This document shows positions 5,636 through 53,137 of a stretch of DNA of 64,000 nt, one piece after another. The stretch lies in NCBI RefSeq assembly GCF_014397005.1, contig NZ_JACGWS010000002.1, positions 62,001 to 126,000 on the forward strand. Direction: 5' to 3'. The notes under the pieces were generated by a model. It did not search any database and was not told the DNA's origin. It saw only the letters and a list, made by a program, of their open reading frames with translations. The DNA comes from Kordia aestuariivivens. GTDB lineage: Bacteria; Bacteroidota; Bacteroidia; Flavobacteriales; Flavobacteriaceae. Within the stretch, counting starts at the first letter, position 1. Each line of letters begins with the position of its first letter. The translations under genes and the position numbers were made by a program.

Positions 5636-6670
5636 TCAATCTAAAGAAATCACACTCTTTATCGCAAAATGATCCGAATAATGTTCTGAGAAGGTATGAA
5701 ACGTATTTACGGTAAACGATTCGTCTGCGAGAATAAAATCGATTCGCATCGGGAAAAAAGGATAATCAAGTGTTTTACCAAATCCTTTCCCGGATTCCAC
5801 AAACGCATCTTTCATGTTGCCTTTAATGGTTTTATACACATTGGAGAATTGTGTATTATTAAAATCGCCCAAAATAATTTTCTTGTAATGACACTTCGTG
5901 CGATTGATTTCAAAGAGTTCTACTTGCGATTGCTGCATCTTAAATGTATTCGCCATACGTTTCAACAAACGCTCGGAATTCTTTTGAGAAAACTCTTCTT
6001 TTTGCGGATTGATGCGCAACGATTGTAAATGCAAATTGTATACGCGAATGGTATCGTTGTTTCTTAAAATGTCAATATAAATAGCATTGTTTGGTGTATT
6101 TGGAAATTCTACGGAACCTTTATGTAAAATCGGAAATTTAGAAAAAATAGCCTGTCCCGTTTTTTCATTCTTACTTTTTAAAGCAACATATTTATACGGA
6201 TAAAAGCTAAAAGCTGCTTCCTGATTGCGATGAAATTCCTGTAAAGCAATGATATCTGGTGATTCTGAACGAATTAAATCTACAATCTTTTTATCGATAT
6301 GATCTTCCTTGATCCAATCATAAATATTAAACAGTCGCACATTATAACTCATCACCGAAATTGCATTCTGCGATGGTTCTGTGGTGTTTCCTGAAAATTT
6401 ATACAATGAAGTTACATGCGAATAGCCAAGAATTAAAACAAAAAGTGATAGTAAGAAATGTTTTCGGACATTTAAAATCCAAAAGGCCATAAAGCAAAAA
6501 TTAATCACAATAAACACAGGAACTAACAAACTTAGCACAGACAGAATTGGGAAGCTTTTTGGAACTGCATACGGTAAAATATAGGACAAGAGAAGCAACG
6601 CTGCAAATACAGAGTTTAAGAAGAAGATGATTCTACCTAAAAAGCTTATTTTTTTCTTCTTCTCACTCAT
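5636..6670 (-). CDS. Endonuclease/exonuclease/phosphatase (EEP) family protein, membrane anchored
   Basis: 344 residues. Three N-terminal membrane helices (about 10-32, 42-66, 71-88) precede a full EEP domain: SVMSYNVRLFN (start of domain), DIIALQEFHRN with the metal-binding glutamate, the GDFNNTQF motif, and SEHYSDHFAIK with the catalytic SDH. These residues argue for a live Mg-dependent hydrolase facing either side of the inner membrane; the substrate cannot be read from sequence. It follows the two rhomboid genes in the same direction with 3 bases between, an arrangement common in Flavobacteriia. Confidence 0.9.
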   Translation of the reverse strand: MSEKKKKISFLGRIIFFLNSVFAALLLLSYILPYAVPKSFPILSVLSLLVPVFIVINFCFMAFWILNVRKHFLLSLFVLILGYSHVTSLYKFSGNTTEPSQNAISVMSYNVRLFNIYDWIKEDHIDKKIVDLIRSESPDIIALQEFHRNQEAAFSFYPYKYVALKSKNEKTGQAIFSKFPILHKGSVEFPNTPNNAIYIDILRNNDTIRVYNLHLQSLRINPQKEEFSQKNSERLLKRMANTFKMQQSQVELFEINRTKCHYKKIILGDFNNTQFSNVYKTIKGNMKDAFVESGKGFGKTLDYPFFPMRIDFILADESFTVNTFHTFSEHYSDHFAIKSVISLD

Positions 6671-6673
6671 ATA

Positions 6674-7561
6674 TTAATTATTCTTTCCTGCTTTAAACAA
6701 GAAATCTTTCTCTTGCTTGGTCAGACTTTCATAACCAGACTTACTTATTTTATCTAAAATGCCATCAATTTCACGTTGTTGCTGATTTGGTGATGACGTA
6801 GTCGTTTTTGTAGAACGTTTTTTTGTTTTGTTTTTGTATACAGTTTTTAATGGAGATTTCTTTTTGAATGTAAAATAATTCGTCAAGCTTTCCCAAAAGC
6901 GTTCAAAACCGATTCCAATATCATTTCCTTTTGTGAGTTGTTTTACATAGAAATATCCAATAAGCACGCCGCCAATATGAGCAAAATGTCCACCTGCATT
7001 ACTATACGGAATGTATGAAATATACGAAACGACTAACAAAGCCGCAATGATCCAATATTTAACAGGAAATACGCCAAACAGGTTCACAATAAGATTCGGT
7101 GAATAGGTTGCGCCAGCTGCCAAAATTGCTAATATAGCTGCCGATGCGCCCATTAAAAGAGCGGGTTCATCTGCAAAAGCTGGAAGTACGTTATACGCTA
7201 TTAGAAATAAAATTGCACCTGCAAAAATTCCATAAGTATAGACTGTGATGAATTGTTTTTCAGTAAAAAAGGTATTAAAAATTCGTGCAGTAAAATATAA
7301 TCCGATACAGTTGAAAATTAAGTGAAAAAAGTTGACATGCATAAACGCATACGTAATGATTGTCCAAGGTTTGTAAAATAACTCCGAACCATTAGGAAGC
7401 GTGAAATATTCCACAAAAAATGTTGAATGTGTCTTTGTCAATGAATGGTAAATTGTATTGTACAAAGCAACGATTGTAAAAATAACGATATTGATAAAAA
7501 TCAACTTTTCAGCTGCGTTAAATCCGCGATATAAAGTCGTTATGCGTGTTCTATAATCCAT
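6674..7561 (-). CDS. Rhomboid family intramembrane serine protease, second copy
   Basis: About 295 residues from ATG at 7561, which overlaps the stop of the upstream rhomboid (TAATG), so translation is coupled; a TTG nine bases further up is less likely. The rhomboid core has about six helices. The serine motif reads GASAAI rather than GASGAI, so the catalytic serine remains but the following glycine is replaced by alanine. The histidine motif is GGHFAHIGG. A basic cytosolic tail of about 90 residues ends in a short helical domain (DGILDKISKSGYESLTKQEKDF) seen in Bacteroidota rhomboids. Probably active, but the serine-loop change deserves testing. Confidence 0.9.
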   Translation of the reverse strand: MDYRTRITTLYRGFNAAEKLIFINIVIFTIVALYNTIYHSLTKTHSTFFVEYFTLPNGSELFYKPWTIITYAFMHVNFFHLIFNCIGLYFTARIFNTFFTEKQFITVYTYGIFAGAILFLIAYNVLPAFADEPALLMGASAAILAILAAGATYSPNLIVNLFGVFPVKYWIIAALLVVSYISYIPYSNAGGHFAHIGGVLIGYFYVKQLTKGNDIGIGFERFWESLTNYFTFKKKSPLKTVYKNKTKKRSTKTTTSSPNQQQREIDGILDKISKSGYESLTKQEKDFLFKAGKNN

Positions 7562-48348: not shown

Positions 48349-48906
48349 ATGATGCGAGCTATTTACAAATTCATTTACTTCAAACTCATGGGTTGGAAAA
48401 TTAAAGGCAATTTTTCTGATGAAGTAAAAAAGTGTATCGTAGCCGTTGTTCCGCATACGAGTTGGCACGATTTCTTTATTGGATTGATGATTAGAAGCAT
48501 CACAAAAAAAGAAATCAATTATGTAGGGAAAAAGGAATTGTTCAAGTTTCCGTTTGGTGCTTACTTTCGTTGGACAGGCGGCGCGCCGATTGACAGAACT
48601 CCAGGTCAAAATAAAGTGCAAGCAATGGCAAGTGTATTTGAAGGAAAAGAAGAATTTAGATTAACGTTAGCGCCCGAAGGAACTCGCGGACGCGTTGAAG
48701 AACTCCGCACAGGATTCTACTATATTGCAAAAGAAGCAAAGGTGCCAATTACTCTAGTGGCGTTTGATTTTGGCAAAAAAGAAGTCAAAATTGACGAACC
48801 TTTTTACCCAACAGATGATATGGAAGCTGACTTTGAATACATTCACAAATTTTTTGAAGGTGTTGTTGGAAAAGTTCCTGAAAAAAGTTTTCGTTACAAT
48901 GTGTAA
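48349..48906 (+). CDS. 1-acyl-sn-glycerol-3-phosphate acyltransferase family (PlsC-like)
   Basis: 185 residues, short for PlsC but typical of Bacteroidota. Acyltransferase box 1 is VPHTSWHDFFIG (H-x4-D), box 3 is APEGTRGRVEELRTGF, and box 4 VPITLVAFDF. GGAPIDRTPGQN lies between. Transfers acyl groups to lysophosphatidate or a similar lipid; substrate choice not readable. The stop overlaps the cupin gene start by 8 bases. Confidence 0.88.
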   Translation: MMRAIYKFIYFKLMGWKIKGNFSDEVKKCIVAVVPHTSWHDFFIGLMIRSITKKEINYVGKKELFKFPFGAYFRWTGGAPIDRTPGQNKVQAMASVFEGKEEFRLTLAPEGTRGRVEELRTGFYYIAKEAKVPITLVAFDFGKKEVKIDEPFYPTDDMEADFEYIHKFFEGVVGKVPEKSFRYNV

Positions 48907-49660
48907 ATTACATTACATATTCGTTTTCTTCCTTTGTATGCAATTTGCAATTGCACAAGATATTTCAAAAGATACTGTCATAAAGCCTTTTGAGATTAAT
49001 AAACGCTTCTTGTCAGGTATAAATATCCCAAAAGTAAAATTAAAAGCACATCCAGAAAGAGCATATTTCCAAAGAACTATCTACAAAGGTTCAGATTTAA
49101 GTGTATTTATTTTATCTAGTGAAACAGCTACAAATACAATCAAAGATTTTTCAGTAGATGAGTTTGTCTACTATTTAAAAGGTAAAGCAGAAATTAAGTT
49201 GGAGAATAATGAAAAACGATCTTTCCTTTCGGGAGATTATATCTGTGTTCCAAAAGGTTTTTCAGGAGAATGGACAAATAATGAAGGAAACAAGTATCAT
49301 TTAGAACTTTCTGTTATTTCAAACAAAAGAGCTGATAAAGAGGCGGTTTCTATACCAAGTATTCCTTTTTTGTTAGATCGAGAAGTGCTTTCAGGGATCA
49401 AAAATGAAACGACACTTTTTTCTGGTGTGGAATTGAACATAGAGATTGTTTCAGAAATCCCAGGGCATAAAGAAATTTCACCAACAACTAAAGATCAATT
49501 TATACATGTTTTAGATGGGATGATCGTAATTTCCGCTAATAATGACTCATTGGAAATTTTCCATCGTGGAGATTTTTTTGTTTTACCAAAAGGGTTTTCA
49601 GGAATATTGAAAACGGAAGCACAAGATACGTGTAGAATGTTAGTCGTGACAGCTAAATAA
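48899..49660 (+). CDS. Secreted double-cupin protein
   Basis: 253 residues from ATG at 48899 (overlap with the acyltransferase gene). Signal peptide MCKLHYIFVFFLCMQFAIAQ. Two cupin units: DEFVYYLKGKAEIKLENN...GDYICVPKGFSGEW and KDQFIHVLDGMIVISANN...GDFFVLPKGFSG. The second has a near-copy of the first motif, showing internal duplication. No complete His metal set is evident. Extracytoplasmic; ligand unknown. Confidence 0.8.
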   Translation: MCKLHYIFVFFLCMQFAIAQDISKDTVIKPFEINKRFLSGINIPKVKLKAHPERAYFQRTIYKGSDLSVFILSSETATNTIKDFSVDEFVYYLKGKAEIKLENNEKRSFLSGDYICVPKGFSGEWTNNEGNKYHLELSVISNKRADKEAVSIPSIPFLLDREVLSGIKNETTLFSGVELNIEIVSEIPGHKEISPTTKDQFIHVLDGMIVISANNDSLEIFHRGDFFVLPKGFSGILKTEAQDTCRMLVVTAK

Positions 49661-49696: not shown

Positions 49697-50848
49697 TTAT
49701 TTTTGTGCATGAGTTATATTTTTTGTTTCGGGAGTTTTTGTTCTTTTTATATTCGACAATTCATAGTGCGCAATAGCTTTTTGTTTTAAAGGGTTTTCTT
49801 CCCAATCAGACCATTCATTTGTATACGGATCATATCCGCATTTTAAAGGTTTCGAATATAAATTTGCTGGTTCTTCGGTATATGCGCGGCAATCGGTACA
49901 GACATATCGAAACTCACAATCTTGGCATACAAGCACGAAATCTTTCTTAAGGTTCCAAATCGAAGTAAACTCTTCATTTTTGATAACTTCCGATAAATTA
50001 GTTTCTTTAATATTTCCAAAAGATGTCGCCATTGACGGACAATTTTTAATTGAACCATTGGCATCAATAGATACTTTTCGATTCAAACAAGTATTGTGAA
50101 AATGTGCTTCCATATAATGACTTTTCACAGCATTAAAATATTGTTTCTCTACAAGCCCACAACAGGTTTCGTCGGTTAATACTTGCGTCGTGTGATAAAT
50201 GGAAGATAAGCTTTTAATCACGTCGTATTCGTCATTCTTGTCCGCAGCATGCACAATAATATTCGAGATTTTTGTGTGATTATGCATGAGTTTAATCAAC
50301 GCATTCAATGGCAACTCATCACTATCTTTTACATAAATTTCTAAATATTCAATACAAGTCAGTTTTACACTATTTGCTAAATATTCCAATTGTTCAATGC
50401 TTAACGAAATGTACGAACGAATTTGTACGGCTTCGCACTGCAATTCATTCAATTGTGAAATTGTACGTTCGTAAATGGCTTTCGTAACTTCAAAATCTTT
50501 AATGTCAATAATACTATTTGTTATGATTGATGGATTTTTCCAGTCAATTTTGATTTCAGGAAAATTAGTTCGGATTTTATCATTTGCCAAAAAACCATAT
50601 TCGTTTTCTAAAATATACGATACATAACTTTCTACAATTCCTTTATTTTCGACTCCGTAAATTTTAAACAATGTTTTTATGGAATACAGTTTTGCATTCT
50701 CCATAAAATTGATCATATCGTTCGGAATTAAGTCAAACTTTCCACGTTGACTATCGGTCAATAAAGCTCTGCCATGTCCTTTTGTAATCAAACAAGAAGC
50801 AAATAGCATCAGGTATTTATCGTTGGTATCTTGGTTTAGTGAAAACAT
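49697..50848 (-). CDS. gwsS: Grasp-with-spasm system SPASM-domain peptide maturase
   Basis: 383 residues. The SPASM domain covers about 270-345: CLNRKVSIDANGSIKNC, then CQDCEFRYVCTDC (C-x2-C-x5-C-x2-C) and KPLKC. The N-terminal 260 residues have the length and helical look of a partial TIM barrel but show no C-x3-C-x2-C for a radical-SAM cluster. Partner of the ATP-grasp protein at 51048; in silico work by Haft and others named such pairs grasp-with-spasm, RiPP maturation systems of Bacteroidota. The gene symbol follows usage in that system and is tentative. Start overlaps the 71-aa gene by 13 bases; the last 33 bases are nearly shared with the gene at 53143. Confidence 0.82.
   Translation of the reverse strand: MFSLNQDTNDKYLMLFASCLITKGHGRALLTDSQRGKFDLIPNDMINFMENAKLYSIKTLFKIYGVENKGIVESYVSYILENEYGFLANDKIRTNFPEIKIDWKNPSIITNSIIDIKDFEVTKAIYERTISQLNELQCEAVQIRSYISLSIEQLEYLANSVKLTCIEYLEIYVKDSDELPLNALIKLMHNHTKISNIIVHAADKNDEYDVIKSLSSIYHTTQVLTDETCCGLVEKQYFNAVKSHYMEAHFHNTCLNRKVSIDANGSIKNCPSMATSFGNIKETNLSEVIKNEEFTSIWNLKKDFVLVCQDCEFRYVCTDCRAYTEEPANLYSKPLKCGYDPYTNEWSDWEENPLKQKAIAHYELSNIKRTKTPETKNITHAQK
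49715..49747. repeat. 33-base repeat, copy A (3' end of the SPASM gene)
   Basis: Identical to 53144-53176 at 31 of 33 positions (TATATTTTTTGTTTCGG then a G/A difference). The two genes that contain it read it in different frames. Confidence 0.85.
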
Positions 50849-51051
50849 CTCAAAATAGGTTTATGATATTTGGTGTCAACAGGATGAGAATCGGTTTGAT
50901 ACGTTGGTAATTCTATAATTTTAATGTGTCCAGCATTATCTACCAAGTTGCTTTGTCCTATTAATTCGGATAGAAAAAATACGGCTTCAAACAACTCAGG
51001 AGTTTCGTCCATCTGTTGCGTTAACGCTTCAATAATTTGTTCGTCTTTCAT
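50836..51051 (-). CDS. Small protein of the grasp-with-spasm operon
   Basis: 71 residues: MKDEQIIEALTQQMDETPEL (helical) then FEAVFFLSELIGQSNLVDN and a loop-rich end rich in His/Asp (TDSHPVDTKYHKPILRCFH). It overlaps ATP-grasp by four bases (ATGA) and the SPASM gene by 13, so all three are translationally coupled. No cysteine pair or GG site, so it does not look like a second precursor. Could be a leader-binding or scaffold subunit; this is inference from position. Confidence 0.6.
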   Translation of the reverse strand: MKDEQIIEALTQQMDETPELFEAVFFLSELIGQSNLVDNAGHIKIIELPTYQTDSHPVDTKYHKPILRCFH

Positions 51052-52007
51052 GATGTTAAATAGTTAGCAATTTTTTCATCTAAAAAATAATTACACGGTT
51101 TAGAAACCATATCGTATTGTCCTATTGGGTTGATTTCTAGAAAACTATATTCATTTTCCGTCGTGTAAATAATATCTAAAGAAGCAGAGTTTAACTTAAA
51201 TTTTTCCAGTAATGCTCTCAGTTTTGTTTCTAGCGAAGTTGGCAATTGATATGGAACGCATCTATTGGGCGATTTCATATTATAATTTCTAAAATCGACT
51301 TTTGTTTTATCGTCATTCTGTGAAAATATCGCCATCGAATAGAAGGTATCCACTAAGAAAAATGTGCGAATTTCAAATTCTTTTGCTACTAAATTTTGAA
51401 ACAAACTCACATTGAACGAATCGGGTAATATATCAATATTTTCTAGTGTAATTTTCTTGGTCATCAAATCGGCAAACACATCTCCTTTAATATTAGGATC
51501 TAAATTATTAACAGCTTTTGTGATGATTTCTGTATGCGTGATGATAAACTCTTTTAAAACCGCTTTCGAGTTTGTAATTAGAGTTTTAGGTGTTGTGATA
51601 TTTAATGTTTTACACGCTTCTAAAACGGCTAATTTGTTAATATTTGATGAGGTTTGATATTGATTTAACGATCTGTCTGCCAACGAATTTTCAATCGTGT
51701 TTGTAATATCGCGTTCGGCTTCTTTACTAAAATAATTCAAATATCCATGAAAGGTTTTATCGTTGACATTCCTAAGTTTACGTCTGCTAAATGTGTCCCA
51801 TCGACCTCTGCGATACCAATATTTTGAAACATTTCCGAGCGAAATTGTATTTCCGTCATGCGCGAATTCAATTGCGTTTCCGATCACTTTCAAATCTTTC
51901 AAAAATGTAGTGTCATTGAGACGTAAAAAATCGGCATTGCTGTGTTTCAACCATTTTACCACTTGCGTCGTAGAATAATCGTCTCCATTCGATTTAATCA
52001 AAATCAT
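51048..52007 (-). CDS. gwsG: Grasp-with-spasm system ATP-grasp peptide ligase
   Basis: 319 residues from ATG at 52007 (MILIKSNGDDYSTTQVVKWL is the family start; an earlier ATG at 52055 would put a terminator hairpin inside the coding region). N-terminal preATP-grasp, then ATP-binding and metal motifs in the C-terminal third, with FLEINPIGQYDMVS holding the Glu-x-Asn magnesium ligands. Such enzymes make omega-ester or omega-amide bonds between Ser/Thr/Lys and Asp/Glu side chains of the precursor (graspetides). Coupled to the 71-aa gene by ATGA. The symbol is tentative. Confidence 0.85.
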   Translation of the reverse strand: MILIKSNGDDYSTTQVVKWLKHSNADFLRLNDTTFLKDLKVIGNAIEFAHDGNTISLGNVSKYWYRRGRWDTFSRRKLRNVNDKTFHGYLNYFSKEAERDITNTIENSLADRSLNQYQTSSNINKLAVLEACKTLNITTPKTLITNSKAVLKEFIITHTEIITKAVNNLDPNIKGDVFADLMTKKITLENIDILPDSFNVSLFQNLVAKEFEIRTFFLVDTFYSMAIFSQNDDKTKVDFRNYNMKSPNRCVPYQLPTSLETKLRALLEKFKLNSASLDIIYTTENEYSFLEINPIGQYDMVSKPCNYFLDEKIANYLTS

Positions 52008-52023
52008 ACTAAAAAAAGGTTTT

Positions 52024-52050
52024 AAAAAGGGAGAATTACACAATTCTCCC
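52024..52050 (-). terminator. Intrinsic terminator/attenuator between precursor and enzymes
   Basis: GGGAGAATT-GTGT-AATTCTCCC (minus strand) is a perfect 9-base stem with a 4-base loop, followed by TTTTT. It is 18 bases past the precursor stop and 17 bases before the ATP-grasp start, so most transcripts could stop after the precursor. Confidence 0.8.
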
Positions 52051-52067
52051 TTCATGATATTTATATC

Positions 52068-52298
52068 TTATAGCATTGATGGATCTCTGTCATTAGGCTC
52101 AAGACTGTGATCGAATCGTATATCGCTATGATGATCTGCCATTGCTGGATGTGGCGGACAACTTGTTAAGTATGTTCTACTTGTTCTATACGAAGAAGAT
52201 GCACCATCAGACAAGTCAGTTGCTCCCACAATGCTTCCTGTGTTTTTTAGCTCTTTCGCTTTGAATTTTCCGTTTTTTAAACTTTCTAGTTTTTTCAT
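52068..52298 (-). CDS. Grasp-with-spasm system precursor peptide
   Basis: 76 residues. Leader MKKLESLKNGKFKAKELKNTGSIVGA resembles other Bacteroidota leaders but has no GG; the likely cleavage is near IVGA. The core contains a run of Ser/Thr (SSSYRTSRTYLTSC), a single Cys, and an acidic tail HHSDIRFDHSLEPNDRD that offers Asp/Glu partners for ester links. Promoter not clearly seen upstream. First gene of the operon, closed by an attenuator hairpin. Confidence 0.8.
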   Translation of the reverse strand: MKKLESLKNGKFKAKELKNTGSIVGATDLSDGASSSYRTSRTYLTSCPPHPAMADHHSDIRFDHSLEPNDRDPSML

Positions 52299-52531: not shown

Positions 52532-53137
52532 CTATCGATGATCCCAAGAACGTTCATCATCTTTATTACTTGGCGATAAACCTAAGATTTCATTTTTGGT
52601 ATTTACACCCAACCCTAGAACGGTTCTGTTGGCATAATTAAAATACGAAACGACTTGATTTACTTCTAAAATTTCGCCATCATCGTAGCTAAATTCGCGA
52701 AGCGTATCAATATCACCACGCGTCAAATCTGCGGCAGCGAACGTTAACTTTTTAGCATACGTTACCAATGCCATTTCTTTTTCAGATAAAAGAGTAGCTA
52801 AAGAATCATTTTCAATATGTTTTCGGATAGCAGCTGCCTTTTTATCATTTTGTAAAAAGCGCTTCATGCCTGCAAAATGATGCTCGTAGCAATAATCACA
52901 TTTGTTGATGAAACTTGTGTACGTGCCTAACAATTCCAGAAACCAATTTGGAAACGTATTATCCGAATGATGCAAGGTGTTTTTATACAAACTCATGTGT
53001 CCTGTTAGTGTGTGCGGGCGCAAACTGTGAATGCCCAAAACGTTATCAATTTGGTTGTTTGGGCCTTTAATTTTGGTGTAAATTGATTTGAGTTTCCCCG
53101 TAGCTTTTTCAAACGGAATCATCTGTATCCAACTCAT
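52532..53137 (-). CDS. AhpD-like/carboxymuconolactone decarboxylase family protein (peroxidase-related)
   Basis: 201 residues. The family motif CDYCYEHHFAGMKRFL (about 78-93) has the C-x2-C...H arrangement of AhpD-type redox sites, after ELLGTYTSFINK. The remainder is helical and typical of peroxidase-related members; the second half, VNQVVSYFNYANRTVLGLG, is also family-like. Cytosolic. It follows the secreted protein gene at 53143 by 5 bases. Confidence 0.87.
   Translation of the reverse strand: MSWIQMIPFEKATGKLKSIYTKIKGPNNQIDNVLGIHSLRPHTLTGHMSLYKNTLHHSDNTFPNWFLELLGTYTSFINKCDYCYEHHFAGMKRFLQNDKKAAAIRKHIENDSLATLLSEKEMALVTYAKKLTFAAADLTRGDIDTLREFSYDDGEILEVNQVVSYFNYANRTVLGLGVNTKNEILGLSPSNKDDERSWDHR

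Follow-up and report, generated by a model that had tools for sequence, protein, structure and literature searches.

What do a SPASM protein and a 71-residue protein do in an operon whose ATP-grasp ligase might be the only catalyst acting on the peptide? The question is raised by a locus in a 64,000-nt stretch of the Kordia aestuariivivens genome (contig NZ_JACGWS010000002.1, positions 62,001 to 126,000; hereafter the window), where positions 49,697 to 52,298 hold genes for a precursor peptide, an ATP-grasp ligase, the small protein and the SPASM protein. An earlier note, made from the letters of the window, had taken them for a grasp-with-spasm operon producing a ribosomally synthesized and post-translationally modified peptide (RiPP). 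The analysis revealed that the four genes have homologues and are under selection, that the radical motif is absent from the SPASM protein, that this protein has a predicted fold like that of a RiPP recognition element (RRE), that the small partner is near-universal in such operons and that the precursor core carries a conserved Thr/Asp pattern. From these results we infer leader binding, an adaptor role and a product. The reading to which we lean, with a little better than even confidence, is a partner-dependent graspetide operon in which the ATP-grasp would be the sole catalyst, the SPASM protein with its RRE a leader-capturing scaffold, and the small protein an obligate adaptor coupling that scaffold to the ATP-grasp.

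The four open reading frames (ORFs) lie, all on the minus strand, where the earlier note had placed them, and the overlaps that it had described are exact: 4 bases (ATGA, 51048-51051) between the ATP-grasp and small genes, and 13 bases (50836-50848) between the small and SPASM genes. Its naming of the system was also right, since both large proteins scored above the curated cut-offs of their families (ATP-grasp against TIGR04192, 269.5 bits, cut-off 230; SPASM protein against TIGR04193, 355.1 bits, cut-off 175). The SPASM protein also matched PF13186 with 28.9 bits (gathering cut-off 21.5). The two large genes are neighbours on the same strand in the window. Among 395 genomes of the family, all 21 above-cut-off TIGR04192 matches were followed, at a distance of 189-249 bases, by a TIGR04193-type match, which in three cases fell under the TIGR04193 cut-off; conversely, an ATP-grasp match, six times under its cut-off, lay upstream of all 27 TIGR04193 matches taken in (of 35 rows, 8 partial or low ones having been left out).

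Orthologous four-gene operons (L058, L059 and L060) were found in two uncultured Kordia loci and one Dokdonia metagenome-assembled genome (MAG). Among named sequences, the SPASM gene is closest to two from uncultured Kordia (79 and 72% identity), and the orthologues of the small protein are 77, 68 and 48% identical. The dN/dS ratios, rough values with dS above 1, were for L058 and L059, respectively, 0.10 and 0.14 (precursor), 0.11 and 0.10 (ATP-grasp), 0.14 and 0.17 (small gene) and 0.05 and 0.10 (SPASM gene); for L060 they were 0.13 (ATP-grasp), 0.15 (small gene) and 0.23 (SPASM gene), the precursor being saturated. The ratios of the small gene thus indicate purifying selection.

The operon is a further member of the known grasp-with-spasm system, with a testable new mechanistic reading. 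It shares with that system the ATP-grasp and SPASM families, the small gene directly before the SPASM gene and a MKKL-type leader; it differs in a small protein without the LPL signature, a leader ending in VGA instead of GG and the lack of a C39 transporter in the operon. It corresponds to ATP-grasp branch 5 (PMC8939145) and, equated through the SPASM partner, probably to graspetide group 14 (PMC13097080).

Other loci were collected in two sets. The SPASM profile gave 80 named loci among the matches listed (545 stretches encode a relative), to which 23 loci from the same genome and its family were added; after four duplicate loci and the fragment L075 were dropped, the main set comprised 106 SPASM genes including the window. 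The second set, of 30 loci, was found with the SPASM protein of L029, L171, L175 and L192 being left out as duplicates. The alignment of SPASM proteins (A3) omits 6 of the 106 rows (L072, L074, L098, L112, L126 and L136). At slots with more than one open frame, the choice fell on the small ORF whose tail was best, a rule that favours the motif described below; one listing of the slot was made without it.

The earlier note had asked whether the small ORF is absent from other such operons. It is not: the slot between the two large genes was filled by a small ORF in 106 of 106 SPASM loci of the main set. Of these, 103 were read directly, those of the second L066 locus and of L128 were found by profile, and in L136 the small protein is fused in frame to the SPASM protein (5692-6999; profile E 1.8e-6), forming one 435-codon frame in which about 40 linker residues separate the two; the MAG bears the label Thermoanaerobaculum, which would place it outside Bacteroidota. 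The slot was likewise filled in 28 of 30 loci of the second set, L194 being incomplete. In L128 (4821-5948) a 375-residue ORF starts like a small partner and continues into a hydrophobic, signal-peptide-like stretch, a possible fusion to a secreted protein. As far as its position goes, the protein cannot be called unassigned, as it was in the earlier note, because PMC8939145 describes small LPL proteins (116) directly upstream of the SPASM gene in almost all of 190 loci; the window copy lacks the LPL signature and is for this reason termed here an LPL-slot homologue, not an LPL member. The 116 proteins of that paper and our own loci may not be the same set.

When the window and its three nearest relatives were withheld from the profile, it picked out the 71-residue protein from 5690 ORFs (E=1.3e-4; best unrelated ORF, 0.37); 99 of the 103 small proteins trained this profile, and their own scores are therefore no test. 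This match, together with the purifying selection, excludes a chance ORF. The best-kept part of the protein is its C-terminus, YHKPILR in the window and (F/Y)YKPIS[KR] in the family consensus. A permissive KPIS[KR]-like pattern fits 97 of 103 small proteins, the first Lys is K in 109/124 loci and the last position is K or R in 120/124; the Pro of the N-terminal LP motif is less well kept (P in 101/124). The small protein modelled alone had a helix at 18-32 and low confidence (pLDDT 70.4, pTM 0.27), which fits a docking peptide. No match was obtained with this model in Foldseek at E 10 or less, and neither Pfam scans of 103 small proteins nor a search of solved structures with their profile gave anything credible.

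In the SPASM protein, three regions could be distinguished: an RRE-like part (about 10-100), a radical-SAM-like (S-adenosylmethionine) barrel without the cluster motif (about 104-250) and then the SPASM domain. The motif CX3CX2C occurred in 0 of 134 SPASM proteins, the window included, and in 0 of 100 of the aligned set. Near the first barrel strand, 36/134 had at least two Cys within a stretch of 45 residues, none with CX3CX2C spacing. The candidate assignment as a canonical radical SAM enzyme was rejected on these counts. The AlphaFold2 model (pLDDT 93.7, pTM 0.89) leads from strand 111-116 directly into helix 119-135, at the place where radical SAM enzymes hold the cluster loop. Foldseek returned two matches only at E 0.001 or better, chains 5why and 5wgg of a sactipeptide maturase; we take 5wgg to be CteB. 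Residues from about 104 onwards aligned with SuiB, PqqE, anSME and ChlB (Z about 10-12), and nearly the whole chain aligned with 5wgg (Z 11.8, root-mean-square deviation (rmsd) 6.6, 283 residues) and with TigE 8vpo (Z 11.9, rmsd 7.2, 305 residues). The protein thus has the barrel and SPASM fold in common with radical SAM/SPASM maturases (5wgg, SuiB, PqqE, TigE), the likeness to 5wgg and TigE spanning the N-terminal domain too, and differs from them in that the AdoMet cluster motif is absent in all 134 relatives. A Pfam scan of 100 SPASM proteins found SPASM in 86 and otherwise scattered weak matches; the sequence search of solved structures with the SPASM profile gave four weak, unrelated-looking matches.

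Residues 10-100 of the model aligned with TruD 4bs9 (Z 8.1, rmsd 3.2, 88 residues), with heterocyclase 4v1v (Z 7.6; also 4v1u and 4v1t) and with MccB (Z up to 7.6), proteins whose N-terminal domains we take to be RREs. The RRE-type rows overall reached Z 7.1-8.1 over 79-88 residues; two more MccB rows, with rmsd 14, were left unused. The SPASM protein is accordingly predicted to carry an RRE-like fold at its N-terminus, and leader binding is a putative function of it. For the small LPL proteins PMC8939145 proposes a PqqD-like role or, given their resemblance to a leader motif, contact with the ATP-grasp. Because residues 10-100 resemble RRE-type domains, a PqqD-like function would most simply be assigned to the N-terminus of the SPASM protein rather than to the small protein. 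The main text of PMC12710340, on RREs, contains neither "SPASM" nor "graspetide".

Eight Cys of the SPASM protein (230, 254, 270, 308, 311, 317, 320 and 337) are each kept in 97-100 of 100. By comparison with anSME, 308, 311, 317 and 337 presumably bind one cluster; the other, called here the first, would be held by 254, 270, 320 and probably, as the fourth ligand, 230. Three or four of Cys 230, 254, 270 and 320 are missing from 10 of 134 loci, including the paralogue L007 of the same genome; by alignment, 9 of these 10 retain all of Cys 308, 311, 317 and 337. The basic residue at the tail end of the small protein was present in 120 of the 124 loci with the four first-cluster Cys and in 0 of the 10 without (Fisher p 2.7e-12, phylogeny ignored). 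This count was made by profile column; an earlier regular expression had given 122/124 vs 4/10, those four lying upstream of the motif. The joint loss of first-cluster ligands and basic tail residue points to a contact between the tail and the first-cluster side of the SPASM protein. The reduced-type loci are further L027, L028, L029, L066:7173-8189, L135:2266-3279, L172-L174 and L176, in which the tail of the small protein is shortened or altered; L172 is a near copy of L173, and the SPASM proteins of L027-L029 fall under the TIGR04193 cut-off.

The precursor has the leader MKKLESLKNGKFKAKELKNTGSIVGA, with G-A where GG is expected, a core beginning at about T27 and a variable C-terminal tail; the search of the family library with it gave no credible match. 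Short upstream precursors with a conserved leader and GG changed to GA were present in all four orthologous operons (window, L058, L059 and L060), sharing MKKLESL...KFK.KELKN.G..VGAT in the leader and T39, T/S42, T45, C47, PPHP, D55, D59 and D63 in the core. T39, T42 and T45 are candidate donors and D55, D59 and D63 candidate acceptors; since donors spaced by three and Asp residues spaced by four lie round a turn, up to three ester links are predicted. A product with up to three crosslinks (-54 Da) is thus suggested by the conserved core pattern. A literature search for a characterised member of the system found none, in agreement with the earlier note, which had given the product as not known; the phrase "grasp-with-spasm" was not found in the literature searched. 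Graspetides have been obtained for groups 2, 7, 8, 19 and one unnumbered group (PMC9576775), and other groups have been characterised (PMC13097080).

The steps of the favoured mechanism would be as follows. The RRE-like domain of the SPASM protein would bind the MKKLESL...KF leader, and the ATP-grasp, as the only catalyst, would join T39/T42/T45 to D55/D59/D63 in up to three esters, perhaps nested round the CPPHP turn. The SPASM part, with its two Fe-S clusters, would be a scaffold and not a radical enzyme. The small protein would be the obligate adaptor: it would dock to the SPASM protein through its C-terminal KPIS[KR]-type tail and to the ATP-grasp through its N-terminal helix, the latter perhaps at the site of the microviridin PFFARFL leader helix.

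It is possible, although we consider it doubtful, that the small protein serves solely as a subunit by which the SPASM protein is folded or stabilised, and never contacts the ATP-grasp. In nearly all loci its gene immediately precedes the SPASM gene, in L136 the two proteins are fused, and its best conserved part, the tail, is lost along with SPASM ligands, all of which would suit a subunit; against this stands the LP motif, which resembles the microviridin-type leader whose helix activates ATP-grasps (PMC8939145). A hydrophobic-Pro-hydrophobic motif was found in the N-terminal part of 74/103 small proteins. The resemblance had been suggested in PMC8939145 and was quantified here: against PFFASFLEK, the microviridin-type leader of Bacteroidota, the post-Pro residues scored above every one of 2000 permutations made within the motif, and they outscored like motifs in the SPASM and ATP-grasp proteins (p 2.7e-6) and in neighbouring ORFs (p 1.1e-4). 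RiPP enzymes can be activated by leaders, whether these are supplied in trans or as a fusion with the enzyme (PMC13003496).

We regard as unlikely, somewhat more so than the subunit role, that the SPASM protein is a second catalyst whose two Fe-S clusters carry out a redox modification, for example of core Cys47, with the small protein as a PqqD-like chaperone. This is close to the proposal of PMC8939145, in which the SPASM protein of branch 5 is termed a radical SAM enzyme and a PqqD-like LPL is suggested; the conservation of the eight SPASM Cys, and of Cys47 in 4/4 orthologous precursors, would agree with it. Against it speak the absence of CX3CX2C from all 134 proteins, the RRE-like fold already predicted within the SPASM protein and the ten loci that retain the ATP-grasp and small gene without the ligands of one cluster. 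That the small protein is instead a second substrate or follower peptide, as its size, its operon position and the conserved Thr/Ser and Lys near its C-terminus might suggest, is very improbable given its single copy at a fixed place, the L136 fusion, purifying selection similar in order to that of the enzymes and, according to PMC8939145, the lack of a conserved GG motif.

Several observations weigh against the reading of the SPASM protein as scaffold and the small protein as adaptor. On the SPASM tree the co-loss amounts to 2 changes and at most 2 independent pairs, 1 of them supported; on the ATP-grasp tree (all 134 rows) it amounts to 7 changes and 2 supported independent pairs. With so few changes and pairs on both trees no phylogenetic test was significant, and independent co-loss is unproven. 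The RRE-only rows (Z 7.1-8.1) are borderline, near the stated background of the tool; the RRE assignment rests on a predicted model, the whole-chain rows have a high rmsd (6.6-7.2), and no RRE-type Pfam family was among the matches listed, 25 of 78 families, for 100 SPASM members. The retention of all eight Cys in 124/134 fits equally well with clusters that do chemistry. L200 of the second set had no small ORF that could be found, and the L136 fusion is from one MAG contig only. The window small protein has no hydrophobic-Pro-hydrophobic match in its N-terminal part, which makes leader mimicry the least supported step here, and the LP-motif p-values are too small, because the 74 motifs are interrelated and their independence is overstated. 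The motif D[FYW]R was found in 117/134 ATP-grasp stretches, some of them partial.

Table 1. Features of the grasp-with-spasm operon in the window.
Feature	Position	Strand	Basis or remark
Precursor peptide, 76 aa	52068..52298	minus	L058/L059/L060 orthologues with conserved leader and core
Hairpin, 11 pairs, loop of 4, T-rich tail	52027..52052	minus	Between precursor and ATP-grasp gene
ATP-grasp ligase, GwsG type, 319 aa from likely start	51048..52007	minus	TIGR04192; longest ORF from 52055
Small partner protein, 71 aa, LPL-slot homologue	50836..51051	minus	Held-out profile match; orthologues
SPASM protein, 383 aa	49697..50848	minus	TIGR04193, PF13186, AlphaFold2 model, Cys conservation

The ATP-grasp family profile matched microviridin-type ligases in the PDB (AMdnB 7m4s, 9e-54; ATP grasp ligase 5ig9, 1e-52; also 7mgv and 5ig8), and the window ATP-grasp has DFR at the motif mentioned above. 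Its longest ORF (Table 1) probably has a spurious start: the extra 16 codons lie inside the hairpin, the TIGR04192 match begins at residue 18 of that ORF, and both the alignment consensus and the L059 and L060 ORFs begin at the equivalent of 52007. The hairpin between the precursor and ATP-grasp genes explains the false N-terminal extension.

The stem of this hairpin is perfect and its T-rich tail lies on the strand of the operon. At the corresponding place L059 and L060 form hairpins that differ from it in sequence, are equally well paired and are likewise T-rich past the stem; that of L058 is longer. These features fit partial termination favouring the precursor over the enzymes, and the hairpin is possibly a leaky terminator or attenuator, which would allow an excess of peptide. 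A terminator scan found fewer sites than in shuffled sequence (1 vs a mean of 2.7) and listed the hairpin on the plus strand, not that of the operon; the argument rests on the orthologues.

Leader removal and export would depend on a C39-peptidase ABC transporter from another part of the genome. In L060 the SPASM gene is followed by genes for a C39 ABC transporter and an HlyD-type protein; neither follows it in the window, L058 or L059. Among 104 locus records, which include duplicates and truncated ones, C39 transporters were present in 48, HlyD in 41 and the L005-like lipoprotein family in 56. Two C39 ABC transporters elsewhere in the K. aestuariivivens genome are 58 and 52% identical to that of L060. 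Cassettes of a C39-peptidase ABC transporter with HlyD, candidate exporters in trans, were seen in this genome at L169 (C16) and L170 (C1), L169 having three GG leader-type peptides nearby. Of 91 loci with sufficient sequence upstream, 68 gave a candidate leader-type ORF in a pattern scan, some of these hits being spurious.

The same genome holds three more grasp-with-spasm loci: L005 (C9), with two different GG precursors, L006 (C34) and L007 (C3), where the SPASM protein lacks the first-cluster ligands and the small protein ends FYKPAFL. The operon in the window is flanked upstream by a peroxidase-related enzyme gene (52532-53137; TIGR01926, 90.1 bits, cut-off 81.8), also an operon neighbour in L059, and downstream by a convergent gene for a two-domain cupin protein (48896-49660).

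A partner-needing ATP-grasp has a counterpart in rosaritide: the graspetide synthetase MirB requires MirC, whose N-domain is weakly RRE-like (PMC13097080). Three linkages and up to -54 Da, predicted here, are common to both systems; MirC has a SurA-like domain in place of SPASM, the host is Micromonospora, and the available account in PMC13097080 does not name a separate small protein. With leaders of the microviridin/chryseoviridin type (PFFARFL/PFFASFLEK) the likeness is the P-hydrophobic motif, thought to activate the ATP-grasp and similar to the LP motif of many partners; in microviridins this motif is within the precursor, and here a separate protein would carry it and act in trans, the motif not being visible in the window copy.

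The absence of the radical motif across 134 relatives, the RRE-like fold, the co-loss of cluster and tail, and the conserved Thr/Asp core pattern are new here. A bolder extension of the adaptor reading, speculative and rather improbable in this full form, is that leader recognition is split over three polypeptides. A radical SAM/SPASM enzyme would have turned into a non-catalytic Fe-S scaffold with an RRE, and the LPL-slot protein would be a trans activator helix, once part of a precursor and now tethered by KPIS[KR], switching the ATP-grasp on for any peptide that the RRE delivers; this would explain how wildly diverse cores are processed by near-identical ATP-grasps. Branch 5 graspetide loci are numerous in Bacteroidota (190 according to PMC8939145). 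Expression tests seeking radical chemistry in them would fail if the SPASM protein is no radical enzyme, and so, if the adaptor reading is true, would tests omitting the 46-83 aa ORF; that reading defines a concrete minimum of four genes and predicts a mass shift. A leader activator that works in trans, if true, would be useful for leader-free peptide cyclisation.

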